NCBI GenBank assembly: GCA_029260055.1
Contig: JAJDDX010000424.1
Coordinates: forward strand, 1 to 64,000
Direction of reading: 5' to 3'
DNA length: 64,000 bases
Source: Phycisphaerae bacterium
GTDB taxonomy: Bacteria; Planctomycetota; Phycisphaerae; UBA1845
Shown here: in pieces, positions 7,669 through 20,718 of the stretch
Position numbering within the stretch: the stretch's first letter is position 1
How the letters are laid out: each line of letters starts with the position of its first letter
Position numbers and translations under genes: made by a program
Notes under the pieces: generated by a model
What the model was told of the DNA's origin: nothing
What the model saw: only the letters and a program-made list of their open reading frames with translations
The model's database searches: none

Positions 7669-8154
7669 ATGGATATACCAATCGAGCAGCGGTTCAAAGT
7701 GCTTTGCGAGATCGTTCGAGCGCAGCATTTCGCGTGGCGCGAAGCGGCGCTGGCGATGGCGCCGGACCTTGATCCGGTCGAACTGACGAACGAGATGTGG
7801 CGCATCACCGGCGTGCAGACCGCCAAGGCCTACGTCAAGCGCCTCGATGCGGACAAGCCGATGGCCATGCAGATCGCAAATGCCATCGCCTGGTCATCCG
7901 TGTGCATGGGGGAAGATGCAGCCGTCGAGGCGGGCGAGGGCGACGAGGCTTTCGTCAAACATGACGATTGCCCCTGGTTCCACTGGCACAAGCGGCTGAA
8001 CTTGCTCGCGGAGGATCGGCCCGGGTGCGATATGTGGTTCAATACGCTGGTCAGCGAGGTCAATAAGGCCCTCGGCACCAGCGTCAAGATCGAAACGAAG
8101 AGTACGCTGCCGGACGGATGTGATTGCTGTCTGAGGCGCCTCTGGGTCGATTAG
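7669..8154 (+). CDS. Small conserved-looking protein of the CoA cluster, function unknown
   Basis: The 161-residue protein is soluble, with no signal peptide or membrane segment. It has an N-terminal helical half ('RFKVLCEIVRAQHFAWREAA'), then 'DDCPWFHWHKRLN' and a C-terminal 'DGCDCCLRRLW' with closely spaced Cys that could bind metal or act in catalysis. The layout is faintly like L-2-amino-thiazoline-4-carboxylate hydrolase-type proteins, but I do not recognise it with confidence. It is the last gene of the rightward CoA cluster, ahead of a hairpin at 8201 and the convergent sulfur genes, so a role linked to that pathway is plausible. Confidence 0.6.
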   Translation: MDIPIEQRFKVLCEIVRAQHFAWREAALAMAPDLDPVELTNEMWRITGVQTAKAYVKRLDADKPMAMQIANAIAWSSVCMGEDAAVEAGEGDEAFVKHDDCPWFHWHKRLNLLAEDRPGCDMWFNTLVSEVNKALGTSVKIETKSTLPDGCDCCLRRLWVD

Positions 8155-8200
8155 CCGCAATTGCGTTTGACGCGCTTCGCCCGGTCAGACCCCCCTCTTT

Positions 8201-8219
8201 CCCCCCTTGGCAAGGGGGG
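8201..8219. terminator. G/C hairpin between convergent genes
   Basis: CCCCCCTTG, a single G, then CAAGGGGGG form a perfect 9-base-pair hairpin, a very stable structure in either strand. It lies between the 3' ends of the rightward gene ending at 8154 and the leftward sulfite reductase gene ending at 8265. There is no clear U tract, so it may be a bidirectional transcript end or a dispersed palindrome; placement favours a terminator. Confidence 0.5.
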
Positions 8220-8264
8220 ACGAAAGAAGGCGAATAGGAACACTGCGGAGAGCCTGAGTCCGCG

Positions 8265-10631
8265 CTACGCCTTGCGGATGACGACGCGGAAACGGTTGCC
8301 CTGCTGCTCCTCGGACAGCACTTCGTGTCCGTCCTTCTCGGCGCTGCGTGGTACGCTCTTGCCGCCGGCCTCATCCAGCATGACCGCAAGCACCTGTCCC
8401 TGCTGCATCTGATTCAACATCATCTTCGTCTTGACGTAGTTCAGCGGACAGGTCACGCCGGCAAGATCGGCCTCACGATCAACGGTCACGTCACTCGACG
8501 CCTTGGCGGGAGCGGGTGAGGGAGCGTCACCAGCAGCCGGCGCCACGGGCACGCAGGCCTTCGAGGACGCCACGGCCTTGAACCGAAGCGATTGATCCAT
8601 GTTGGCGTAAAGCTCTTCGACGGCGGTGACGAGTGATGCCACCTCGCCGGGGTCCGCATCGAACGCTTCCCAGCACGGCTTCGCCACGACCTTGCGTGCA
8701 TCGGCGATGAGTTGGCCGATCGTGCCGTCCACCAACTCAGTCTTGACGAAGTGCTCTTCAAAGAGACGAAGGGCGTCGGGTGCGTCTTTCGCTTCCTCGC
8801 CGCGCGTGATCAGCAGGGCACGCGACGCGAGTTCGATAGCTGAGCCGAGCTTGCCGGAGTCCATCGCCGCGCGAGCGCTGGTGAGGTCCACCTTGATCAG
8901 GTCGAACACGCCGGCGCTGCACTCTCCGGCGCCGCGGCCGGCCAGCGAGAAGGGCTCCTCCGCTGACCAGTCGTAGTAGTAGTTGCGGTCTTCTGTAAAG
9001 GGCGGCACGTCCTGGTGTTTTTCCGCCGTCGTGACCGCCAAGTCCCGTCCGCCGTTTTCGAGGAAGGCGTCGAAGTCGGGATAGTGCTTGGATTCACGAA
9101 ACGCACGCAGGTACTCGGTCACGAACGCCGGGATGCTCCTTGCGGGGACGACCTCCTTGCCCTCGGCGAGACGAGTCGTACCCTCGCCGACGCGGCCACC
9201 GACCTGCATGACGTAATGCGGTGCGAGGCGGCCGTTCACGCGGCGGGCTGTCCCGTAGAACCCCAGCGAGGCGATCGGCTGACGTCCACAGGCGTTCGGG
9301 CAGCCGTTGATGTGCAGCTTGAGGTCGACTGCGTCGTCGAGATCGATGTCCGCCTTCCGAAGCTCACCACTAACCGCCTCCGCCAATCCCTGGGACAGGC
9401 AGATGCCCAACCGGCAGGTATTGGCACCTGTGCAGGCGATCATCTCACGCTGTGCCGGCGAGTCACTGGCGGCAAGATCCAACTCCGTAAGCGCGCGGTG
9501 CAGGCCGGGTAGCTCAGTCTCCGTGACCCATCGCATGACCAAGTTCTGCGACGGCGTGGCGCGCACGACGCCTTCGCCGAACTCGTCGGCGACTTGGGCG
9601 AGGCTCTCGATCGTGTCCGCGGAGAACTCACCGAGAAAGCGCGGCACGTGGACCATGAAGTAGCCGGGCTGTTTCTGTGCAGCGACGTTCATCTTGCGCC
9701 AGCGATCGAAACCCTCCATCGGCTCAGCGGCCGGCGCGGGCTCATGGGGCGTGAACTCGCGCGGCTCGCGAAGCTCCGGGGTCGTGGGTCCTTCCGCGCG
9801 CAGTTGCGCCAACTCCTCGCGATAGAGGTTGCGGAAACCGTCGAACCCCTTGTCCTCGACGAGGAAGCGCAGCCGAGCCTTCTGTTTGTTCTTGCGGTTG
9901 CCGTGCTTATCGAAGACGCGTTTGATCGCCTCGGCGATAAGGTATGTGTCGCCAACCGGCACGAACTCTTCGAGTAGTTGCCCGACGCGGCTTTGAGCGC
10001 CCATGCCGCCGCCCGCGTAGACCGCAAAACCGGGTCCATCGGGACCTTCCTTCGCGACGAAGCCCACGTCGTTGATCATCACGCCCATGCAATCGGTCGA
10101 GCATCCCGAGAAGGTGATCTTGTACTTCCTCGGCAACTGGAAGCTGACGGGGTCGCGCAGCATGAGTTCGGTCAGCGCGTTGGCGTGAGGCGTTACGTCG
10201 AAGGTTTCCAGTGGACAGACGCCGGCATCGGCGCACGCGGTGATGTTGCGTAGTGTGTTGCCGCCGCCGCCCTTGGATGAGAGGCCGGCTGAGTATAGGT
10301 CGACAAGGGCGGGATGGATGTTGTCGATCGTCACGTCGTGGACTTGAATGTCCTGGCGCGTTGTGACGTGAAGCAGCCCGCTTCCGTAGGTGCTCGCGAC
10401 GCTCGCGAGTTTTCGCATCTGGTGGGGGAGCATGGCGCCGCCGGGCAACCTCACGCGCAGCATGAACGTCCCGTTTTGACGCTGCTCGTAGACGCCCTGA
10501 GGCACGCGGAACGAGCGGAACTGCGTAGCGTTCGTCTCACCCGACTTGTATCGCTGCGTTTCCTCTTTGAATCGGTCGAGGTCATCCGGCAATGTCGGCG
10601 GAAGGTCGTAGAGCGTATCCATGGACTGCAC
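8265..10631 (-). CDS. Sulfite (nitrite) reductase with C-terminal HEPN-like and TusA domains
   Basis: The 788-residue protein joins three parts. Residues 1-560 are a ferredoxin-type sulfite/nitrite reductase with the siroheme/[4Fe-4S] ligands Cys400-x5-Cys406 and Cys444-x3-Cys448 in 'ACTGANTCRLGIC' and 'GCPNACGRQ'. Residues about 575-680 are helical and resemble a HEPN-like module. Residues about 718-788 are a TusA-type sulfur carrier with the active Cys728 in 'GVTCPLNYVK'. The reductase would make sulfide from sulfite (six electrons), and the fused carrier could take up the sulfur as persulfide. It starts at GTG 10631, or at ATG 10622, after an AGAGGAAAG site, 21 bases downstream of the cysteine synthase gene. 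Nitrite as substrate cannot be excluded. Confidence 0.85.
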   Translation of the reverse strand: MQSMDTLYDLPPTLPDDLDRFKEETQRYKSGETNATQFRSFRVPQGVYEQRQNGTFMLRVRLPGGAMLPHQMRKLASVASTYGSGLLHVTTRQDIQVHDVTIDNIHPALVDLYSAGLSSKGGGGNTLRNITACADAGVCPLETFDVTPHANALTELMLRDPVSFQLPRKYKITFSGCSTDCMGVMINDVGFVAKEGPDGPGFAVYAGGGMGAQSRVGQLLEEFVPVGDTYLIAEAIKRVFDKHGNRKNKQKARLRFLVEDKGFDGFRNLYREELAQLRAEGPTTPELREPREFTPHEPAPAAEPMEGFDRWRKMNVAAQKQPGYFMVHVPRFLGEFSADTIESLAQVADEFGEGVVRATPSQNLVMRWVTETELPGLHRALTELDLAASDSPAQREMIACTGANTCRLGICLSQGLAEAVSGELRKADIDLDDAVDLKLHINGCPNACGRQPIASLGFYGTARRVNGRLAPHYVMQVGGRVGEGTTRLAEGKEVVPARSIPAFVTEYLRAFRESKHYPDFDAFLENGGRDLAVTTAEKHQDVPPFTEDRNYYYDWSAEEPFSLAGRGAGECSAGVFDLIKVDLTSARAAMDSGKLGSAIELASRALLITRGEEAKDAPDALRLFEEHFVKTELVDGTIGQLIADARKVVAKPCWEAFDADPGEVASLVTAVEELYANMDQSLRFKAVASSKACVPVAPAAGDAPSPAPAKASSDVTVDREADLAGVTCPLNYVKTKMMLNQMQQGQVLAVMLDEAGGKSVPRSAEKDGHEVLSEEQQGNRFRVVIRKA

Positions 10632-10652
10632 CTGTCGTCTTTCCTCTCGCGT

Positions 10653-11651
10653 CTAGCCCTGCGGGTTGCCCTCGTCTCCGAGAATGTCCGCGAAGTAACT
10701 GGCGTATTTGAAGCCACTGTCCGGTGAGATGGCGACGGCTACGCCCTCGTGGTCGCGACTGAACTCGGCGGCCGCGTGTACGATGGCCCCAGTCGAAGGG
10801 CCGACTATCAATCCTTCCTTACGGAAGAGCTGTTTTGTCATTTCGTAAGCGGGCTCGTCGTCGACGCGGATCACGTGGTCGATCAATTCCGTATCGAGAA
10901 TGCCCGGTGTCTTGGATTCCTGAAGGTTCTTCAGGCCCGGCAGACGGTGTCCTTTTTGCGGTTCGATGGCGACCACCTGAACGCTGCTGTCCTGTTCCTT
11001 GAGGTACTTGCCGGTGCCGGTGATCGTCCCACACGTGCCGTAGCCGACGAAGAGATACTTGACTTGCCCTTCCGTCTGCTTCCATATCTCCGGCCCGGTG
11101 GTTTCGTAGTGCGCCCGGACGTTGTCGGCGTTCTCATACTGATTCGGCATGGCGTAGGCCGGTCCGTCACCGGCACTGTCGGCGATCGAATGTGCCAGCG
11201 CGATGGCTCCATCCTTGGGATGGTCCACTGGGCAGAGGTCGTCCGGCGTGGGCCAGACTTCCGCCCCGAGCATGCGCATCAGCACCTTCTTCTCTTCCGG
11301 CACGGCGTCCGGCACGGTGACGGTCAGGTGCTTGCCCATGAGCGTCGCCAGCGCTGCCAGCGCTATGCCCGTGTTGCCCGACGTCGGTTCGACCAGTCGT
11401 TTGCCCTCGAGTTCGCCGCGCTCTTCCATCCCCTTGAGGAGGTAGAAGGCCGTCCGGTCCTTGATCGATCCGAACGGGTTGTACCATTCGAGCTTCAGGA
11501 ACAGGTTGAAGGCATCGTTGCTTACGCTTTTGCGAAGCCTCAGCAGCGGCGTCGGCTCGTCCGAGTTCGCAATGAGCTGCCGAATGTCGTCGTAGCGGCG
11601 AAGCGCCGGATCTGAAGCGAGGCCGCCGTTTTCCGTTGGTTCTGCCATCAC
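10653..11651 (-). CDS. PLP-dependent cysteine synthase (CysK/CysM-type)
   Basis: The 332-residue protein is a fold-type II PLP enzyme: the Schiff-base lysine is Lys64 in 'FGSIKDRTA' and the phosphate-contact loop is PTSGNTG at 89-95. A Gly-rich loop 'GYGTCGTITG' and 'GPSTGAIVHAA' follow. It would replace the activated hydroxyl of O-acetylserine or O-phosphoserine with sulfide; the two cannot be separated by eye. The start is GTG 11651 or the adjacent ATG at 11648. It is the first gene of a two-gene operon with the sulfite reductase-TusA fusion, which would supply the sulfide, so the pair forms a compact cysteine-forming unit. Confidence 0.9.
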   Translation of the reverse strand: MMAEPTENGGLASDPALRRYDDIRQLIANSDEPTPLLRLRKSVSNDAFNLFLKLEWYNPFGSIKDRTAFYLLKGMEERGELEGKRLVEPTSGNTGIALAALATLMGKHLTVTVPDAVPEEKKVLMRMLGAEVWPTPDDLCPVDHPKDGAIALAHSIADSAGDGPAYAMPNQYENADNVRAHYETTGPEIWKQTEGQVKYLFVGYGTCGTITGTGKYLKEQDSSVQVVAIEPQKGHRLPGLKNLQESKTPGILDTELIDHVIRVDDEPAYEMTKQLFRKEGLIVGPSTGAIVHAAAEFSRDHEGVAVAISPDSGFKYASYFADILGDEGNPQG

Positions 11652-11932
11652 ATAGCCCTATGGGGTCAAACACGCACCAGTCAAACCGTAGCCGTTACAT
11701 CGACTTCCGGTCAGAAGCGGTCCGCTTCGCGTGCGTGCGAAAGTCGACCGCAAGAGAGGCGTACGGTGCCTTCGGCGGTCGACGAGAGAAGACTTTGTTC
11801 CGATAAGCTCGCTGTGACGGCGCGATATGGAACGACCCTCTCTATCGCCCACGACGCTGATGCCAGTATAGCTGCTGCTCCCGTGCGATTAAAGCCCGTG
11901 GCCACGCGCGCCGCGAAACGGGTCCACCCCTA

Positions 11933-11948
11933 CTTCAGGGGCCTGAAG
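11933..11948. repeat. Short perfect inverted repeat
   Basis: CTTCAGG, two Gs, CCTGAAG: a 7-base-pair perfect palindrome inside the divergent region. It could be an operator or a REP-type unit. No second copy was found in the window. Confidence 0.4.
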
Positions 11949-12067
11949 CCGCGAGCCACGCGAATATCGTCCGTTCCGCCGCCCGGTCGCCGGCTTCCCG
12001 GGGCTATGTTCATTAGTAAAGGAAGGGCGCCCGGGGCGGGCTGACAGCGGTCCGTCGGGCAAGGCGG

Positions 12068-12097
12068 TTGACGTTATCGGGCCCGATTGGGTAGGGT
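12068..12097 (+). promoter_or_regulatory. Possible sigma-70 type promoter for the RidA/PLP pair
   Basis: TTGACG is followed after 18 bases by TAGGGT, a fair -35 and a weak -10, about 80 bases ahead of the RidA-like start. Matches this loose occur by chance in GC-rich DNA, so this is tentative. Confidence 0.25.
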
Positions 12098-12176
12098 TTG
12101 TGGGTCAACGTGTCAATTCCAGCGGTCGGCGGCCTCGCTCGTTCGACCGGTTCGCGCAATTCAGCAGGAGCTCGAC

Positions 12177-12665
12177 ATGGATACGAACGAAGCGACGAGA
12201 CGCCAGTTCCTCTCAAAGGCATCAGTTGTCGGCGCCGCGGTAGCAGCCGGTTCCGGGGCGACCGCACTGGCGTCGTCCGACAGCGCGGGGCCGAGCAGGA
12301 AGGTGATCGAAGGCAGCCCGTACGCCACGTTCTCGCGCGCGGTGGCGTTCGACCGCGTCGTGTTCGTGGCCGGTGTCGTGGGGCAGAAGCCGGGCACGCG
12401 CGACTTGGCGTCGGCGGAGTTCGGGGCGCAATGCCGCCAGGCGATGGAGAACCTCAAGGCGTCCGTCGAGGCGTCCGGTTCGAGCATGGACAAGGTGCTC
12501 AAGTGCAACTGCTTCCTGACGGACGCGGGCGACTTCGGCACGTTCAACAAGATCTACAGCAGCCACTTCCCGAACGACCCGCCGGCCCGATCGACGGTCG
12601 TGGTCAAGGAACTGGTCGTGCCCGGAGCGAAGCTCGAGATCGACTGCATCACGTGCGTGGAGTAA
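12177..12665 (+). CDS. Tat-exported RidA/YjgF-family protein
   Basis: The ATG at 12177 follows AGGAG by 6 bases and gives 162 residues; an open extension upstream has no such site. The N-terminus has a twin-arginine signal ('RRQFLSK') and a hydrophobic Ala/Gly stretch, then a RidA domain: 'SRAVAFDRVVFVAGVVGQKP', 'QCRQAMENLKASVEASGSSM' and 'PPARSTVVVKEL' with the Arg used in catalysis. RidA proteins hydrolyse reactive enamine/imine intermediates released by PLP enzymes, usually in the cytoplasm. Here the Tat signal places it across the inner membrane, and the next gene encodes a Tat-exported PLP enzyme. Some RidA relatives have other roles, so the substrate is open. Confidence 0.85.
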   Translation: MDTNEATRRQFLSKASVVGAAVAAGSGATALASSDSAGPSRKVIEGSPYATFSRAVAFDRVVFVAGVVGQKPGTRDLASAEFGAQCRQAMENLKASVEASGSSMDKVLKCNCFLTDAGDFGTFNKIYSSHFPNDPPARSTVVVKELVVPGAKLEIDCITCVE

Positions 12666-12699
12666 GGGCGGCGCCGTTCGGCGCTACGGAGGATATGTG

Positions 12700-14013
12700 A
12701 TGGTAAACCGACGTGAGTTTCTGGGCGCCATCGGGCTGCCCGCCGCATCGATTGCACTGACCGGCGGACTTTCGTTCGACTCTGACGGCGCAGCGCGTGC
12801 GGCCGATGCCATCGGGTCGCTCGGCGATCGAGACGACACGCCGGAGGCACTCGCCCACGACGAGGACTTCTGGTTCCAGATCGGCCAGGCCTTTACCGTC
12901 GATCGCTCCTTAGTGAACCTGAACAACGGCGGGGTCAGTCCGTCGCCGCGCATCGTGCAGGAGGCGATGAAGCGGCATCTGGATTACTCGAACACCGCGC
13001 CGTGCTACGTGTTGTGGCGGGTGCTCGAACCGCAACGAGAGCCGGTGCGTCGCCGCTTCGCTCGCGAATTCGGCTGTGATGCGGAGGAGGTCGCCTTCAC
13101 ACGGAACGCCTCGGAGGGTCTCCAGATTTGCCAATTCGGGTTCGACCTTCGCCGCGGTGACGAGGTTCTGACCACGAACCAGGACTACCCCCGCATGATC
13201 ACGACCTTCAAGCAGCGCGAGCGGCGCGAGGGGATCGTGCTCAACCAGTTCTCCGTGCCGGTTCCAGCCGAGGACCCGGCCGAAATCGTCTCGCTCTTCG
13301 AGCGGAATATCACACCGAAAACGAAGCTGATCCTGATGTGCCACGTGATCAACCTGACGGGGCAGATCATGCCGGTGCGCGAGGTCGTCGCCATGGCACG
13401 GGCCAAGGGCATTCCGGTCATCGTGGATGGTGCCCACGCGCTGGCGCACTTCGCGTTCAAGCTGTCCGATTTGGATTGCGACTACTACGCGACCAGCCTG
13501 CACAAGTGGCTCTTCGCGCCGCACGGAACCGGCATGCTCTACGTGCGCCGCGACAAGATCGGCGGGCTGTGGCCGCTGATGGCAGCCGAGGAGAAGCAAA
13601 ACGACGACATCCGCAAGTTCGAGGAGATCGGGACGCACCCGGCCGCCAACTACCTGGCGATCGGCGAAGCGCTGACGTTCCACCAGGGCTTGGGTGCGGA
13701 AAGGAAGCAGGCACGCCTGACCCGCCTTCGCGACTATTGGGCGCGGCGACTCCTCGAGCACGATCGCGTGCGTCTTCACACCAGTCTGAAGCCGGGCTTC
13801 GCATGCGGCATCGCGAACGTACAGATCGAGGGGATCGATCCGGCTGAGCTCAATAGCTGGCTCTGGACGACGCACCGAATTCTCTGTACGCCGATCGTCC
13901 ACGACGAGTTTACGGGCATCCGCGTATCACCCAGCGTCTACACGATGCTCCCGGAACTCGATCGCTTCTGCGATGCGATCGAACATGTCATCCGTGAGGG
14001 GTTGCCGGCGTAG
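12700..14013 (+). CDS. Tat-exported class V aminotransferase-like PLP enzyme
   Basis: The ATG at 12700 lies 7 bases after GGAGG and fits better than the GTG three bases earlier; the product has 437 residues. It opens with a twin-arginine signal ('NRREFLGA'). The catalytic domain is of the isopenicillin-N-epimerase/cysteine-desulfurase type: 'NNGGVSPSP', the PLP-contact Asp243 in 'VDGAHALAH' and the Schiff-base Lys269 in 'SLHKWLFAPHGTG'. These PLP enzymes run epimerase, lyase or transaminase reactions. It follows the RidA-like gene by 34 bases on the same strand, so the two are probably co-transcribed and act in the same compartment. Exact reaction unknown. A convergent gene begins 34 bases after the stop. 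Confidence 0.85.
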   Translation: MVNRREFLGAIGLPAASIALTGGLSFDSDGAARAADAIGSLGDRDDTPEALAHDEDFWFQIGQAFTVDRSLVNLNNGGVSPSPRIVQEAMKRHLDYSNTAPCYVLWRVLEPQREPVRRRFAREFGCDAEEVAFTRNASEGLQICQFGFDLRRGDEVLTTNQDYPRMITTFKQRERREGIVLNQFSVPVPAEDPAEIVSLFERNITPKTKLILMCHVINLTGQIMPVREVVAMARAKGIPVIVDGAHALAHFAFKLSDLDCDYYATSLHKWLFAPHGTGMLYVRRDKIGGLWPLMAAEEKQNDDIRKFEEIGTHPAANYLAIGEALTFHQGLGAERKQARLTRLRDYWARRLLEHDRVRLHTSLKPGFACGIANVQIEGIDPAELNSWLWTTHRILCTPIVHDEFTGIRVSPSVYTMLPELDRFCDAIEHVIREGLPA

Positions 14014-14047
14014 CGATGATGCGTTCCGCAGGACGGGCTTCGCCGCG

Positions 14048-15202
14048 TCAGTCTCGCTCCAGGAGCGCCACGGTGACAGCCTCGCCGGGAATCAGAGTGA
14101 TACCACTGTCGAGGGCGACCACGAATCCGCGTCCCCACACAGGGTAGGTCGGGGCTTGGCGATGTCGTGGCGGAGCCTCGTCGACGGTCTCTGACAAGCT
14201 CACCACGGTTCCCGGGTACGCCCGCCGCGCGCCGTCAGTACCGGGCGTGCAGTTGACGAGCGCCCGTGCGCCGACCCCGGCAGAGAGAATCATGTGCTCT
14301 GGGAGGTATGCAATCACACGGTCGGCTGCCGTGGGCGAGACCGTTACCAGCAGGTCCCCGCCTTGAACGTGATCACCGGCGTGTGCGAGCATAGCAGTGA
14401 CCTGTCCGTCGATCGGAGCGCGCAACACGTGAGCATCGATGCGCCGCACGATCTCGTCGATGCTCCGTTGCCGCACGTCGATGGAAAGCCGTAGCGGGGC
14501 AAGCACCGGCTCGAGTAAGGCGTCGACCTTCCGACGCTCTTCGAAAGCGAACCGGCGGCGATCCGCCTCGACAAAGGCTTGCTTAAGGCGGTCGAGCAGT
14601 GCGGTGCTTTCAGTGAGATTGGCCTCCAGCGACTCGACGCGGGTGCGCATCTCGTTGAGTTCGCGAAACGCGGCGTGCTCTTCGTCGTGCAGGTCCTGTG
14701 CGATTTCGTATTCCACGGCTGCCCCGCGCAGCAGCATGCGGTCTCGGGCGTTGATCGCGACCTGAGCCAGGTAGTCGATGTGAGCCGCATCGCGATCCAC
14801 GGCAAAGCGTCGCGCGAGATCCTCGACGTCGGCTGTCGCTCGGCCATTGTCCGCCACGAGGCGTGCCTGTTCCGCGACGACCTCGGCTCGGAGTCGTTCG
14901 ATGTGCTCTTCGACGGCCGCCAACTCGATCCTCTCCTTGTGGTCGTCTAGAGAGACCAGGATTTGCCCGCGGGTCACGTGGTCGTACAGCCCTACATGGA
15001 CGCCGCGGATGACGCCCGTCTCCGGGTGAGCGAGTGTGACGGGTTGCCGGTCGGCGAAGCCGGTCGCCGCGCCGGTGCTGCCGAGCTGTCGGTGCAGATG
15101 GACCGCCGCCGCAATCGCCGAGAGCCAAACGCCGATCGGCACGACGACCGTCAACAAACGGCGTACGCGGCGGCGCTTCTGCATAGAACTTCCCGTTCGC
15201 AC
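14048..15202 (-). CDS. HlyD-type membrane fusion protein
   Basis: The 384-residue protein has a basic N-terminus (KRRRVRRLL) and one membrane anchor near residues 14-34, then a split biotinyl-lipoyl-like domain ('HPETGVIRGVHVGLYDHV', later 'VLRAPIDGQVTAMLAHAGDH') around a long helical hairpin at about residues 90-245. A beta-barrel segment follows with 'VIAYLPEHMILSAGVGARAL'. This is the layout of HlyD/EmrA adaptors that bridge inner and outer membranes. No transporter is adjacent. It is the last gene of the CotH-VTC-DUF4956 unit, starting 18 bases after the DUF4956 stop, so it may connect that surface-modification system to the outer envelope. An alternative start is the Met at residue 7. 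Confidence 0.82.
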   Translation of the reverse strand: MRTGSSMQKRRRVRRLLTVVVPIGVWLSAIAAAVHLHRQLGSTGAATGFADRQPVTLAHPETGVIRGVHVGLYDHVTRGQILVSLDDHKERIELAAVEEHIERLRAEVVAEQARLVADNGRATADVEDLARRFAVDRDAAHIDYLAQVAINARDRMLLRGAAVEYEIAQDLHDEEHAAFRELNEMRTRVESLEANLTESTALLDRLKQAFVEADRRRFAFEERRKVDALLEPVLAPLRLSIDVRQRSIDEIVRRIDAHVLRAPIDGQVTAMLAHAGDHVQGGDLLVTVSPTAADRVIAYLPEHMILSAGVGARALVNCTPGTDGARRAYPGTVVSLSETVDEAPPRHRQAPTYPVWGRGFVVALDSGITLIPGEAVTVALLERD

Positions 15203-15220
15203 GTCAACCTCCGCGCGGCC

Positions 15221-15931
15221 TCAGGCCACGTCCTCATGCTCTTGTTCCACGACCAGATGGATTGCGTCGATAGGGAACGACTCCTTCAGCGCCGCGACGA
15301 GGTCCGGACCGTGCCCCGGGTCTCGCAGGCGGATCTTGTAGGCGCACTCGTAGGTCGGTCCACTCTCTGGTGACGGCGACACGGACTCGTCCACCGAGAT
15401 GATCGAGTAGCGCCGACAGAACCGGGATATCAGGCTGTCCAACCCGTCGGCATCGAGGGCGGACGCTCCCAATCGGAACCGCAACAGACTATCGAGCGCG
15501 TGCCAGGCGCCGAAGTTCGTCATATGTAGATACAGCCCCGTCGCGTTGGCTGCGACCGCGCCGATCAACGCCGTTCCGTAGAACCCGAAACCCGCCGCCA
15601 TGCCACAGATCAGGCAAAGGAAGACGTAAGCCGTGTCGCGGGCGTCGCGTACCACCGTCCGGAAACGGATGATCGCCAGGCCGCCCAGCAGTCCCACCGC
15701 GACCAGCGAATTAGAAGCCACCAGCGACATGCTCAGCGCCGACGTGATCGAGATCAGCACGAGGGCCTGGGTGAAGCTCCGCGAGTAAGATACGCCGCGG
15801 TGCGTCCACTTGTAGCACCAGGCATTCAACTGCCCGACGATGAAAGCGACCAGAAGGGCCAGCACGAGCCTCTCCGCCACGTGGTTGTGCACGCCCTGGA
15901 CGGGCTGAAATAGCTCGTTCAGTAAGTTCAT
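15221..15931 (-). CDS. DUF4956-type membrane protein
   Basis: The start at 15931 overlaps the stop of the VTC-domain gene in an ATGA, giving 236 residues. The first 140 residues contain four or five hydrophobic segments ('LVLALLVAFIVGQL', 'ALVLISITSALSMSLVA', 'SLVAVGLLGGLAIIRFR', 'FLCLICGMAAGFGFYG') with the 'GGLAIIRFRT' turn characteristic of DUF4956 proteins. The C-terminal part is soluble. DUF4956 proteins regularly neighbour VTC-domain and CotH proteins. Their biochemical role is not established; the context suggests an envelope modification complex. Confidence 0.82.
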   Translation of the reverse strand: MNLLNELFQPVQGVHNHVAERLVLALLVAFIVGQLNAWCYKWTHRGVSYSRSFTQALVLISITSALSMSLVASNSLVAVGLLGGLAIIRFRTVVRDARDTAYVFLCLICGMAAGFGFYGTALIGAVAANATGLYLHMTNFGAWHALDSLLRFRLGASALDADGLDSLISRFCRRYSIISVDESVSPSPESGPTYECAYKIRLRDPGHGPDLVAALKESFPIDAIHLVVEQEHEDVA

Positions 15932-16716
15932 GTCGACAGACGCCTCATCCCACTGCCCTGCCGCGCGCGGCGGTCTGCGGCCTGAAAGCACATGACATAC
16001 TTGCACACGCCCCGACGGATCACTTCCACGCGCCGCAGCATATCGGCCACCCAGAAGGGATAGCTGTTGGTGAACTTGATCTCGAGAATCACGCCCCGGC
16101 TTCCGGTGGGCCACCACATGTCTCGCTGCCCGCTGGTTGGCGGCGCAAGGATCCCGCAGTGAACGTCGCGGTCCAGCGTCATGCGAATCCGCTCCGCCGA
16201 ATGGCCCTCGTACGCCTCACGCCTGTAGAAAACACCGAGCACGGGCTGCGCGCCGATCCGCCTGCGCAGTTGCAGGAATTCGTTCATGTTGGTTTCGGTC
16301 GTAAGATCGCAATTCCACTTCTTCCCCAGAAGTCCGTCGTTGCTCCAGAGCAGTTCCTCGCCGGCCTTATCCGAGAGCCGAGCCCGCGTCTTTTGCACGA
16401 TCCCATTGATCTTGCGTTTGACCTCGAAGAACCCGGGCAGCCCCGTCGTAGGCGCTTCTGGTCGACGGTACGTTCGCATCCTGAGCTTATAGCGATTGGC
16501 CTGTTTACCGAGCGTATGCCGCAACAACTCGCGCGAGGGTGAATCCAAGTAGGTGGACACGACCGGATACTCGAACCCAGCCAGCCGCGAGGAATGCGGA
16601 TCCGGCGGAAGATGGTCGAGACACCATCGACGGACCTCGGCCGCCTGCGTTTCGCTGATGACGTACTTCGCCTCATAGCGCTGCCATTTCAATGACCCGT
16701 TGCGGTTGCCGGTCAT
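15928..16716 (-). CDS. VTC-domain protein (polyphosphate polymerase-like)
   Basis: Starting at the Met at 16716 the protein has 262 residues; a longer frame to 16794 adds sequence with no family match. It shows the tunnel-domain motifs of the VTC/CYTH superfamily: 'RYEAKYVI', 'YLDSP', 'KLRMRTY', 'FFEVKRK', 'RREAY', 'LDRDV', 'ILEIKF' and 'CKYVMCF'. The basic residues bind nucleotide and polyphosphate, and the Glu residues bind metal. In yeast the domain makes polyphosphate from ATP; bacterial copies beside CotH and DUF4956 are less well understood. It overlaps the DUF4956 gene and follows CotH by 103 bases on the same strand. Confidence 0.87.
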   Translation of the reverse strand: MTGNRNGSLKWQRYEAKYVISETQAAEVRRWCLDHLPPDPHSSRLAGFEYPVVSTYLDSPSRELLRHTLGKQANRYKLRMRTYRRPEAPTTGLPGFFEVKRKINGIVQKTRARLSDKAGEELLWSNDGLLGKKWNCDLTTETNMNEFLQLRRRIGAQPVLGVFYRREAYEGHSAERIRMTLDRDVHCGILAPPTSGQRDMWWPTGSRGVILEIKFTNSYPFWVADMLRRVEVIRRGVCKYVMCFQAADRRARQGSGMRRLST

Positions 16717-16819
16717 TACTCGCGGCCCTCGCCGCCGAATCGCGCACCGCGTACCGCGAGGATCATCCGCTTGCAGGTGGTTACCCACATACAATACTGA
16801 TGGTTACACCGCGTACTCG

Positions 16820-18598
16820 TCACGGAGTTGTTTCCAGGAACTCGACCACCGCCTCGCGACGACGGCCGACATGGTCCATGAGACCATCGAGCCCCTGGTG
16901 GAACTCCTGAGGACCGGATAGCAACGTGTAACCGGGTTGCTCTCCCGCAGGCCCTACGACGTATGGCGCGATCAGGTCGTGGACTGCTTGGTAGCGCGCC
17001 TGTGTCGGCGCCACCGCGAAGGCACCTTCGCTCGCTTCCCGCACGTAGGAGACGTATTTGGCCCAGTAGACCGGGTCGTCCGCAAGATAACGAATCAGCG
17101 GCCAGTCGTCGGTTACCTCGGCCAGCGAAAGCGACAGCGGCCCGCCGAGCCCTCCGGCGAACATGCCCTCTTCCGCGTTCTCGCCTTGTACCGCGACATC
17201 TGTTGGTTCGGTGCCCGGCTCCGCCGCCTCGCCATCTTCAGTCGGCGGCACCATGGACCCCGATTCATCCCCTGCCAGCGACATGTTGTAGTCCCACGGA
17301 ATCCACTGGAGGCGACCGTCATCCCCGGGATCGGCGTAGAGGTAGTAATTCTGAGCCATGTTGCCGTACTGATCCCAATTCTGAATGACCGTGTTCACGG
17401 CCAGCCAGCGGAGGAACCCGTCGACATTCAAGGTCGCCTCAAGGCCCGCACGCCAGGCTGCGGGGTCAGTTCGATCGGCGTGAAGCGCGGCGACGGCGCC
17501 CTCGACATCACTCCAGTTCTCCTCTTTCTGGTTCGTTTCCTTGTCGAAGGCCCATTCGTCGAACGAAGTCCAGTCCGAAAGCGGCTTGTACAGGTTGCCG
17601 TCGTCGTTGCCGAACCTCGTTTGGAGGAAGGGGTCGTCAGGTACTTCGGTCATCACGTAGAGTCCGAAGTAGGTCGGCCCTTCTCCGTGGTCAACGTACA
17701 CACGGCTAAACGCGGTGCTCGGAGCGGGCAGGCCGGCGTCCCTGAGTATGTCGTGCGCGACCTTCTCGCGCATCAGGGATGAGTCCGACCAGCTGTTCCC
17801 CAGCGACAGTTTCTTGAAGCCGAAGAACCGTTGATTATCGATTTCCGGATGCTCGTCCTCGAATTCGTCGAAATCCAGGCGGAGCGGGTGCTTCTCGACG
17901 CCGGCCATCCAGCTAAACGCCAATGACGATTGCCCCTTGAATCGAATTCCGACGTGCCACCAGGTGTTGCCCTCGAATTCGACAGTGCAGGGCACGAAGA
18001 TCGGGTTGGCGTCCCCGCCCATCGGCGGCGGTTCGTCGGGTAAGCCCTCGAAGTCACCGGGCTCGCCGCCGGGGCCCGGCGGTCCGCCAATGATGACGCC
18101 TCCTTCAGGGAAACAACCCAACGTGCCGGGTTCCATCGGGAAGCAGGTGCCGGCGAAGTCCGTGCCGAAGAGCGTGCCGGTGCAAGCGTCTCCCTCCTCC
18201 ATTCCATCGCAGAGGCCGAGCAACTCCTCCGGAGTGCCGTCGCCGCCGATCATTGGTCCACCGCCGACCCCGGAGCCGGGTTCGCCGAACGTCTCGGTCA
18301 TGTCATCTTGCATCGCCTGCCAATCGCTCGGCGCGATCGTGATGTCCAGACGGTTCACTTTGTCATCGGGAAACACGACATCGTAGTCGGGCGCGGCGCT
18401 CCGTCCGTGTGTCGGCTCGCTCCAGCCCACAGGCCGTGCGGCGGTGTCCGGCTGTGACTCCGACTGCTCCGTATCGCCATCGGGCGATGGTGCGTTCGGT
18501 GGCGACGGGTTGCACGACGCGAGCGGCAAGACCGCCGCGATCGCGAATCCAACTGGGATGAATCTTCCAGTGCCCAAGCGTATCGAGTTCATAGTCAT
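16820..18598 (-). CDS. CotH-family kinase lipoprotein
   Basis: The 592-residue protein has a lipoprotein signal with LASC (Cys29) and a Pro/Ser/Asp-rich linker. The CotH protein-kinase-like fold follows: 'VGIRFKGQSSLAFS', 'KKLSLGNSWSDSSLMREKVA', 'YFGLYVMTEVP', 'GNLYKPLSDW' and 'WIPWDYNMSLAGD' with the acidic metal-binding residue. CotH of Bacillus phosphorylates spore-coat proteins. The lipid anchor here predicts action outside the inner membrane. A Gly/Pro-rich, Cys-containing insertion at about residues 108-200 ('GDACTGTLFGTDFAGTCF') is unusual and may be a surface loop. It is the first gene of the CotH-VTC-DUF4956-HlyD unit. Substrate unknown. Confidence 0.87.
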   Translation of the reverse strand: MTMNSIRLGTGRFIPVGFAIAAVLPLASCNPSPPNAPSPDGDTEQSESQPDTAARPVGWSEPTHGRSAAPDYDVVFPDDKVNRLDITIAPSDWQAMQDDMTETFGEPGSGVGGGPMIGGDGTPEELLGLCDGMEEGDACTGTLFGTDFAGTCFPMEPGTLGCFPEGGVIIGGPPGPGGEPGDFEGLPDEPPPMGGDANPIFVPCTVEFEGNTWWHVGIRFKGQSSLAFSWMAGVEKHPLRLDFDEFEDEHPEIDNQRFFGFKKLSLGNSWSDSSLMREKVAHDILRDAGLPAPSTAFSRVYVDHGEGPTYFGLYVMTEVPDDPFLQTRFGNDDGNLYKPLSDWTSFDEWAFDKETNQKEENWSDVEGAVAALHADRTDPAAWRAGLEATLNVDGFLRWLAVNTVIQNWDQYGNMAQNYYLYADPGDDGRLQWIPWDYNMSLAGDESGSMVPPTEDGEAAEPGTEPTDVAVQGENAEEGMFAGGLGGPLSLSLAEVTDDWPLIRYLADDPVYWAKYVSYVREASEGAFAVAPTQARYQAVHDLIAPYVVGPAGEQPGYTLLSGPQEFHQGLDGLMDHVGRRREAVVEFLETTP

Positions 18599-18831
18599 TC
18601 CCTTCTGCGGTATTCGGTTCGGAGCAGGTGTCCACGCCGTCTGCAGGGAGCGCCCCGCGCGCCTGGCCCGGGCGGGTCTTCCGAACCATTTTCTGCGGCA
18701 CGGAAGTGTCGTTCAACGGTGTTGGGGTAGAAGGCAGGCCCGCGTGACGAGTGGCAGGCGGGCGGTGATAAAAGGTTTGAATCGGCTCGAGCGGTCTTGA
18801 CCTAAGTCGTAGGGGCGCACTTCTGGGGGCG

Positions 18832-20718
18832 TTAGGGCGTCGCGTCGTCCGCGTCGTCCTTGTCCTGCTTCTTCTCTTTCTCGGCGGGTGCGTCTTCTTT
18901 CTTCTCGGGGCTCTCCTCGGCCTCAGCCGGCTCGTCTTCCTCGTCGTCCTTCTTCTTGCGGCGGAAGCCCTCGGGTGGCGGGCCGTCCATCGTCATGACC
19001 TGGAAGCTGCCGCTGCTGCCACCTTTCCCGCTGAGCATGTCGTCGATCTGTTTCGAGTCCATGCCCATGCCCTCGAGGAGTTTGCGCAGTTCCTCCGGAT
19101 CGTCGATGGTCATCACCTGGGCGCCGGCCGGGATCTCCATCCCGTGCTCCATTGTCATGTGCGGCGCCTCACCACTCGTCTCTTTTCCGTCGCTGTCGCG
19201 CGTTCGCTCCATGGGGGTGGTGCGCTTGCACACGAGAACGGGGACATGGTCTTCCTGCAGCAACAGCGCGAGCGTGTAGACGGCCGTCAGCCAAGCGTCG
19301 CCGGCGCATCGCTCTTCAAAGTCGAGCGGTTTGTAGGACGGGTTGGGAATCTGCGCGAACGATCCGTCGCCGCGCTGCAGCGTCGTCATGAGAAGCCGGA
19401 AGTCATCGAGGAACTGCCCCCACGCACGACTTCCGATTTGCCGGCGAAGGATGGCGGTATTGAGGATGTGCAGCGGCACCGCGACACGACCCGCGACGAT
19501 CTCCTTGCCGAGCCTGCTGTTGTATTCCGTCAGTTGAGTGAGGAACGAATCGTAAGGCGTGCAGCCTATCGACCTCAGGGCGGCGCCCGCGCCTGCGCTT
19601 CGACCCGCCTCGCTTCTTCGATCGAATCCCGGTACGTCCGTAGCGACGACGTTACCGTCACCGGTCCGCGCCTTGATGTATGCGCACGCTTTCTCGATCG
19701 GCTCATTCGGCCCCATCACCCCGGCGCGTTCCGCCATGCCGATCGCGAAGAGCGCCTGGTTCGTGGCCAGCGTAGCTTCGTTGTATCCGTAGGAGCCCGG
19801 ATCATCCGTCAGCGGCCAGCCGCCTTCCTCGTCCTGGAGCGAAATCAGTCGGCCCATGCCGTATCCCATGGCTTGCATGAGATCGATGTTCATAGCTTCC
19901 GTTGCGGACAACTCGGCGAGGAACATCAGTGCGTAAGAGATACTGAGGGCCGACAAATCGTCCGGTGGAGCCTCGCCCTCAGGCACCTCGCGGAAGTTCG
20001 AGCTAGCCAAGTCGAAGCATCGCTTCAGATTCTGCGAATACTCCCCGTCGCTAAGCGTGCTGCCTGAGCCCAAAAACGCGAGACCGGCCAGCGAGGTGAC
20101 GGTGAGCCGAGAGGCGGGCGTGTTGCCGGCGGTGTCGAACGATCCGTCTTCATGTTGAGCTTTGGCGAGGTAAGCAAGTCCCTTGCGACCGGCGAGTGTG
20201 AAACGCTCGAGCGCCAAAGGGTAACCCTCCTCGAGTGAGGGCACGCCTGCCGGAATCGAGAACTCCGTTACCTTCCCGTCGCGAAGACGCGCCAAGGCCA
20301 CTTGCTTCTTGCCGGCTGAGATATCGGCTTCGATACGTTCGAGCAGATCGAGCGTCGGGTCTTCCTTGTTCGGAAGGTAGGCATCGCCGGCCTTGATGAG
20401 GACGTCGCCTTCCCGGCAGCCCGCCTCGGCTAGCGGTGACTGATCATGAATCTTCCTCAGCACGATTCCGCCGAGACTGAGAGTCCGACCGGCGTTGTCG
20501 GGGTCCGCGACCTTGACGGTCTTGGCGGCTGGGTGCCCTTCCGCGCCTAGCCAGCTAAGGTTATGGAACTTGGTGACTTGGGGGTCGACGTAATCCGTCA
20601 CCAATGATCGAGTCGAGGAAGAAGTTCCACGCGTCGTCCAAAAGAGTGCGCCCGCCACGAGCGCGACCAGGACCACTCCTCCTAGGATCACTTTCGGCTT
20701 CATCTTCGTCTTATCCAA
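18832..20718 (-). CDS. Membrane-anchored PDZ plus alpha/alpha-toroid repeat protein
   Basis: The 628-residue protein has an N-terminal membrane anchor ('VILGGVVLVALVAGALFW') and a PDZ-like region (about 75-165, 'GIVLRKIHDQSPLAEAGCRE'). Residues about 170-500 are repeats of the squalene-cyclase/prenyltransferase toroid type ('GLAYLAKAQHEDGSF', 'LISLQDEEGGWPL', 'LLMTTLQRGDGSFAQ'). The tail of about 50 residues is charged, rich in Lys, Glu and Asp. No DxDD cyclase acid motif was seen, so it is probably not a hopene cyclase. It is the last gene of the MacAB-like operon. The PDZ and toroid suggest a scaffold or binding role in the periplasm. Confidence 0.7.
   Translation of the reverse strand: MDKTKMKPKVILGGVVLVALVAGALFWTTRGTSSSTRSLVTDYVDPQVTKFHNLSWLGAEGHPAAKTVKVADPDNAGRTLSLGGIVLRKIHDQSPLAEAGCREGDVLIKAGDAYLPNKEDPTLDLLERIEADISAGKKQVALARLRDGKVTEFSIPAGVPSLEEGYPLALERFTLAGRKGLAYLAKAQHEDGSFDTAGNTPASRLTVTSLAGLAFLGSGSTLSDGEYSQNLKRCFDLASSNFREVPEGEAPPDDLSALSISYALMFLAELSATEAMNIDLMQAMGYGMGRLISLQDEEGGWPLTDDPGSYGYNEATLATNQALFAIGMAERAGVMGPNEPIEKACAYIKARTGDGNVVATDVPGFDRRSEAGRSAGAGAALRSIGCTPYDSFLTQLTEYNSRLGKEIVAGRVAVPLHILNTAILRRQIGSRAWGQFLDDFRLLMTTLQRGDGSFAQIPNPSYKPLDFEERCAGDAWLTAVYTLALLLQEDHVPVLVCKRTTPMERTRDSDGKETSGEAPHMTMEHGMEIPAGAQVMTIDDPEELRKLLEGMGMDSKQIDDMLSGKGGSSGSFQVMTMDGPPPEGFRRKKKDDEEDEPAEAEESPEKKEDAPAEKEKKQDKDDADDATP

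Follow-up and report, generated by a model that had tools for sequence, protein, structure and literature searches.

A putative exported PLP enzyme-RidA pair in a Phycisphaerae bacterium and its recurrence across bacterial phyla

The recognised role of RidA is chiefly cytoplasmic: it protects against the enamines of PLP enzymes. Two adjacent genes of a Phycisphaerae bacterium raise the question of whether such a protein could also serve a PLP enzyme outside the cytoplasm and, if so, what the two would do there. The locus lies in a 64,000-nucleotide stretch of contig JAJDDX010000424.1, referred to here as the window, from a host genome of 7.6 Mb (G000). A first-pass annotation had proposed a periplasmic PLP reaction with its own clean-up protein. 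Judging from sequence comparisons, we read the pair as a conserved extracytoplasmic PLP enzyme-RidA module in which an imine or enamine, the probable product of the enzyme, would be hydrolysed by RidA, and we assign this reading a probability of roughly 0.68.

The upstream gene (12177-12665, plus strand) encodes a RidA-family protein of 162 residues. Its frame runs from the ATG at 12177 to the TAA at 12663-12665, and a Shine-Dalgarno-like AGGAG can be read at 12166-12170. The domain search placed the protein in the Rid family (PF01042; 99.2 bits, with the cut-off at 27.3), and its best matches among PDB sequences were L-PSP/RidA proteins (E 3e-20). The narrower model TIGR00004, for Rid family detoxifying hydrolases, gave 95.9 bits, under its cut-off of 106.25. 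The N-terminus, MDTNEATRRQFLSKASVVGAAVAAGSGATALASS, matched the NCBI TAT-signal model TIGR01409 over residues 7-29 with 17.7 bits (cut-off 16.7), and the predicted twin-arginine signal occupies 12177-12275, with the RR pair at residues 8-9 (12198-12203). In alignment A2, the deaminase-site residues Arg138 (codon 12588-12590) and Glu154 were invariant in all 26 rows, and RR was kept in 21 of 21 Tat-type rows. Arg138 stands at the position of the catalytic arginine, which imine hydrolysis by RidA requires, as described in the cited part of PMC4433059. The predicted structure had a mean pLDDT of 80.1.

After a gap of 34 bases (12666-12699), a gene on the same strand (12700-14013) encodes a 437-residue, PvdN-like PLP enzyme of the aminotransferase class V fold. 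Its frame extends from the ATG at 12700 (alternatively a GTG at 12697) to the stop at 14011-14013 and is preceded by a Shine-Dalgarno-like GGAGG (12688-12692, read from the sequence). PF00266 scored 137.5 bits which, together with Lys269 (13504-13506, within SLHKW) and Asp243 (13426-13428), identifies a class V PLP enzyme; by alignment, these residues are the PLP-binding lysine and the PLP aspartate, and Lys269 aligns with the HK of PvdN, SufS and C-DES. The N-terminus, MVNRREFLGAIGLPAASIALTGG, carries the motif RREFL in a predicted twin-arginine signal (12700-12807; RR at residues 4-5, 12709-12714). Twin-arginine signals on two proteins encoded 34 bases apart had been claimed at first pass, and the claim holds at the level of prediction, by TIGR01409 for RidA and by an RR in both proteins whose conservation marks it as more than a chance motif. 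Alignment A1 comprised the window enzyme and 33 relatives (34 rows, 53-79% identical to the window protein), the closest named relatives being mostly Planctomycetota MAGs. Arg4 and Arg5 were at least 90% conserved in these rows, and D243, K269, R408, E308, E309 and G311-P314 were invariant. Tyr163 was also invariant in the family; by alignment, PvdN, SufS and C-DES have at this position a histidine, which we take to stack on PLP.

PvdN is the nearest among curated models, sequences and solved structures. The PvdN model NF051467 gave the top score among curated models (170 bits over residues 1-428), the PvdN structure 5i90 was the best PDB sequence match (E 1e-38; E 5e-51 in a profile search), and the predicted model of the enzyme (mean pLDDT 83.5) also fitted 5i90 best, with a TM score of 0.87 by target length. 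The score of 170 bits nevertheless falls far under the cut-off of 650, the eight neighbouring genes scanned between 7669 and 20718 offer no pyoverdine context, and a PvdN orthologue was rejected on these grounds. Unlike PvdN, the window enzyme also has a conserved FEEIGTHP segment and Tyr163. With SufS, C-DES and EgtE-type class V lyases it shares the fold, the PLP lysine and the PLP aspartate, but it has a predicted Tat signal, and no invariant or near-invariant cysteine was found in the region of the SufS active cysteine (C-terminal loop) in the 34 rows and the 4w91 alignment. A cysteine desulfurase (SufS/IscS) was rejected for lack of this conserved catalytic residue. By these tests, therefore, the protein is a class V enzyme that is neither PvdN nor a desulfurase. 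Beta-elimination and O2-dependent oxidation by PLP enzymes can yield enamines or imines. Among relatives, both reactions have been published, the former for LmbF and EgtE and the latter for CcbF, Cap15 and PvdN (PMC11794154, in the part cited).

The first-pass annotation had suggested a search for conserved pairing and had named an unconserved pair as grounds for refutation; the pair does recur across phyla, and the proposal withstood this test. The pattern scan for the enzyme returned 182 stretches, including 170 relatives, and among the best 80 of these a RidA gene was located near the enzyme gene in 23 loci; a 24th match (L113, 25 bits, opposite strand) was dropped. The chance expectation for a RidA within 6 kb is about 0.8 of 81 loci, at a rate taken from 146 Rid matches in 176.3 Mb (40 genomes). 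Among the neighbour clusters listed, RidA was the commonest family, with 22 of 81 loci; the second commonest had 10. In the 23 loci, RidA was placed downstream on the same strand in 16, upstream on the same strand in five and upstream and divergent in two, and ten of the 16 downstream genes overlap the enzyme stop codon by 1 or 4 bases. The pairs span about eight phyla, with groups taken from record titles: Planctomycetota, KSB1, Neomarinimicrobiota/Marinimicrobia, Rubricoccaceae/Rhodothermaceae, Balneolaceae/Rhodohalobacter (the latter looked up as Balneolota), Gemmatimonadetes, Thermoanaerobaculaceae, Latescibacterota and one plain "bacterium". L035 and L036 duplicate in sequence the G015 and G016 loci (L012 and L009), and L079, from the named species Rhodohalobacter sulfatireducens, and L089 were located in G080 and G081; each was treated as one case. 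In 57 of the 80 enzyme loci, no convincing RidA was present in the fetched stretch, and 43 of the 56 loci without any RidA match were still flanked on each side by 900 bases or more. One of the loci with no RidA found nearby, L117, encodes an enzyme 77% identical to that of the window.

Signal types across the homologues were assigned with our own hydrophobicity-and-motif script and by eye, in place of SignalP. The motif RRx[FLMIVW] was observed in 91 of the 107 enzyme loci whose N-terminus is intact, a set that includes some duplicates. The other 16 loci all belong to Balneolaceae, in which RK or KR replaces the RR of the Tat-like motif (within L348-L366). By the same heuristic, all 23 neighbouring RidAs have an export-type start, comprising four Tat, 16 lipobox/lipoprotein and three Sec-like. 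The four Tat proteins (L035, L036, L070 and L102) are of the window type and are all encoded upstream of the enzyme, and those with a lipobox or Sec-like start are mostly downstream. In the RidA tree, 15 Tat rows formed one clade (100/99), and the lipoprotein neighbours fell mostly in another region; a common clade (p 0.14) and a single clade of the neighbours (p 0.25) were both compatible with the AU test. At most, the tree suggests that Tat and lipoprotein RidAs were recruited separately. The cross-phylum pairing, the 23 of 23 export-type starts and the kept arginine favour the periplasmic PLP reaction with a dedicated clean-up protein that had been proposed from the window. A further exported protein, L189 (from the genome of L103), contains two Rid stretches in a single frame.

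The two genes also tended to occur in the same genomes. Of the 51 genomes in the window's family, 20 encode a Tat-type RidA (53% identity or more, all further matches lying at or below 44%) and 19 the enzyme (E no higher than 1e-60); 15 have both and 27 neither. Tat-RidA was present in 15 of 19 enzyme-positive versus 5 of 32 enzyme-negative genomes (Fisher 1e-5), and the discordant genomes consisted of five with Tat-RidA and no enzyme and four with the enzyme and no Tat-RidA. The script scored 19 of the 20 RidAs as Tat; in the remaining one, L020, the match to the signal region lies farther upstream within the locus. Among genomes about 90% complete or more, the counts were 10 of 11 positive versus 1 of 20 negative, the negatives including G007 with 6% contamination. 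The genes are adjacent in three of the 15 genomes with both (G000, G015 and G016) and on separate contigs in 12, and in most of these genomes the link is therefore one of co-occurrence and not of an operon. In Balneolaceae (58 genomes, enzyme in 20), a close lipoprotein-type RidA, defined as 141 bits or more, was found in 14 of 20 positive versus 1 of 38 negative genomes (Fisher 5e-8), and by coordinates 13 of these 14 lie directly beside the enzyme gene. Independent pairs on rpoB trees gave 4.4 in the same direction versus 0.5 in the other for Balneolaceae (median p 0.22) and 1.9 versus 0.1 for the window's family (median p 0.5; a tree of 30 of the 51 genomes, chosen to include every discordant one). 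These tree-corrected tests agree in direction and are too small for significance.

A broader set of 40 enzyme-positive genomes, spanning many groups, represented 40 of the 80 loci; it was picked mostly for long contigs, and the classes were read by hand. An exported Rid protein was encoded in 35 of them, adjacent to the enzyme in 12 and elsewhere in 23 of the other 28, and none was seen in five. L224 and L263, which seemed to be spurious, were left out, G094 (L334) was ambiguous and L271 had no match to the RidA profile. As a control, 20 enzyme-negative genomes yielded 48 Rid-family matches, one of them exported. In Rhodothermales, an exported Rid of another subfamily was present in 10 of 10 enzyme-positive genomes and in two or three of six negative ones; its presence in the negatives means that it is not enzyme-specific. 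Exported Rid proteins of a low-scoring PVANYV subfamily (L247-L249, L254-L257, L335 and L336) occur in Rhodothermales whether or not the PLP enzyme is present.

How the module might work can be outlined from characterised relatives. PvdN and PtaA of fluorescent pseudomonads are Tat-exported as folded PLP enzymes; in the part of PMC6206403 cited here, cytoplasmic PLP binding is required for Tat export of PvdN, and its relative PtaA carries PLP into the periplasm inside the folded protein. The window enzyme resembles them in its predicted Tat signal, and the earlier suggestion that Tat export fits cofactor loading before secretion finds, by analogy, a documented case in its nearest characterised relative, PvdN. 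The window enzyme would likewise fold and bind PLP in the cytoplasm before Tat export, and would act in the cell envelope on an amino acid or an amino-acid-bearing compound, releasing a reactive imine or enamine through beta-elimination or O2-dependent oxidation. RidA would be exported separately, by Tat in the window and by lipoprotein or Sec signals elsewhere, and would hydrolyse the imine or enamine to a 2-oxoacid and ammonia, completing the reaction and sparing the cofactor. From the kept RidA arginine together with the PvdN/PtaA precedent, we infer that the enzyme makes the imine or enamine and that RidA removes it. RidA may even be needed more outside the cytoplasm, because PLP would arrive there only inside the folded protein, and any cofactor lost to attack by an enamine would be irreplaceable. 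We also lean slightly towards a wider proposition, in which a widespread, unrecognised module of about eight phyla combines a Tat-exported PLP enzyme releasing imines or enamines with a deaminase from more than one Rid lineage, exported by Tat, lipoprotein or Sec signals since PLP would be irreplaceable outside.

Other explanations of the pair have to be weighed against these data. The PLP enzyme could work alone, as an aminotransferase, an epimerase or a PvdN-like carboxamide-forming oxidase, while RidA serves other extracytoplasmic amine oxidases, the two sharing envelope amino-acid catabolism and no common substrate. Such separate functions would suit the 12 of 15 window-family genomes with the genes on different contigs, the five with Tat-RidA and no enzyme, and the periplasmic L-amino acid oxidase (LAAO)-RidA partners already described (in the cited parts of PMC5053998 and PMC10805672). 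We consider them unlikely, given the adjacency with stop/start overlap in ten loci of several phyla and the near absence of exported RidA from enzyme-negative relatives. The invariant deaminase-site Arg and Glu of 26 aligned RidAs make it quite improbable that exported RidA instead stabilises the exported enzyme, as its chaperone or as a binding protein, although chaperone activity has been published for chlorinated E. coli RidA (PMC4284807, as far as cited).

Still less credible is the view that the RR stretches are non-working and that both proteins stay in the cytoplasm, like ordinary RidA-PLP enzyme clusters. The RK or KR of the Balneolaceae enzymes would agree with it, but RR with a hydrophobic stretch is kept over phyla, neighbouring RidAs carry a lipobox and PvdN provides a precedent. 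Gene orders and signal types differ between phyla beside the same enzyme, and the pairing far exceeds the chance rate; it is therefore very improbable that common descent and horizontal transfer alone account for the adjacency and co-occurrence, even with independent-pairs tests that did not reach significance.

The favoured reading, an extracytoplasmic PLP enzyme-RidA module, can be placed beside known systems. As in the cytoplasmic clusters in which RidA accompanies threonine dehydratase, cysteine desulfurase and others (PMC4433059, in the part cited), the RidA gene adjoins that of a possible enamine-releasing PLP enzyme; in contrast to them, the window pair looks exported on both sides, and the words "signal" and "periplasm" are absent from the main text of that article. 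A periplasmic L-amino acid oxidase occurs with RidA in Chlamydomonas (LAO1/LAO2) and Gluconacetobacter (lao-cccA-ridA), according to the cited parts of PMC5053998 and PMC10805672. These are, by analogy, the nearest precedents: RidA partners an imine-making enzyme outside the cytoplasm, imine-making being only proposed for the window enzyme, but the oxidase is a flavin enzyme and ours a PLP enzyme. Tat export of PLP enzymes (PvdN, PtaA) and the periplasmic partnership of RidA with a flavin oxidase have each been described before. RidA exported with a PLP enzyme was not found in the open-licence PMC full text searched, and within this literature the combination is apparently new. If true, the exported pair would extend the RidA idea to the cell envelope and point to a new PLP reaction in the envelope of many little-cultured phyla. 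The dependence of an exported, cofactor-locked PLP enzyme on an imine deaminase would become testable, and exported RidA would offer a way to track down other enzymes that produce imines outside the cytoplasm.

The surroundings of the pair were also inspected. Scanning 11600-14600 against Rfam and for promoters and terminators yielded nothing of use, and no constant second neighbour of Tat-RidA was recognised by eye in 19 loci of the window's family. The eight neighbours in 7669-20718 are ATC-hydrolase-like, sulfite/nitrite reductase, PALP, HlyD, DUF4956, VTC, CotH and DUF6288-like genes. The gene at 7669-8154 on the plus strand resembles L-2-amino-thiazoline-4-carboxylate hydrolase weakly, with 22.2 bits for a cut-off of 28.1, and a PALP-family PLP enzyme is encoded near it at 10653-11651 on the minus strand; these two genes hint at a possible cysteine theme upstream of the pair. 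The idea that the sulfite/nitrite reductase and PALP genes tie the pair to sulfur was discarded, as both genes are on the opposite strand and no such family appeared among the neighbour clusters listed. The reductase (8265-10631, minus strand) combines two NIR_SIR halves and a C-terminal TusA sulfurtransferase domain in one frame of 788 residues. Directly downstream of the pair, HlyD-like, DUF4956/MgtC-like, VTC and CotH kinase genes stand in a row on the minus strand (14048-18598).
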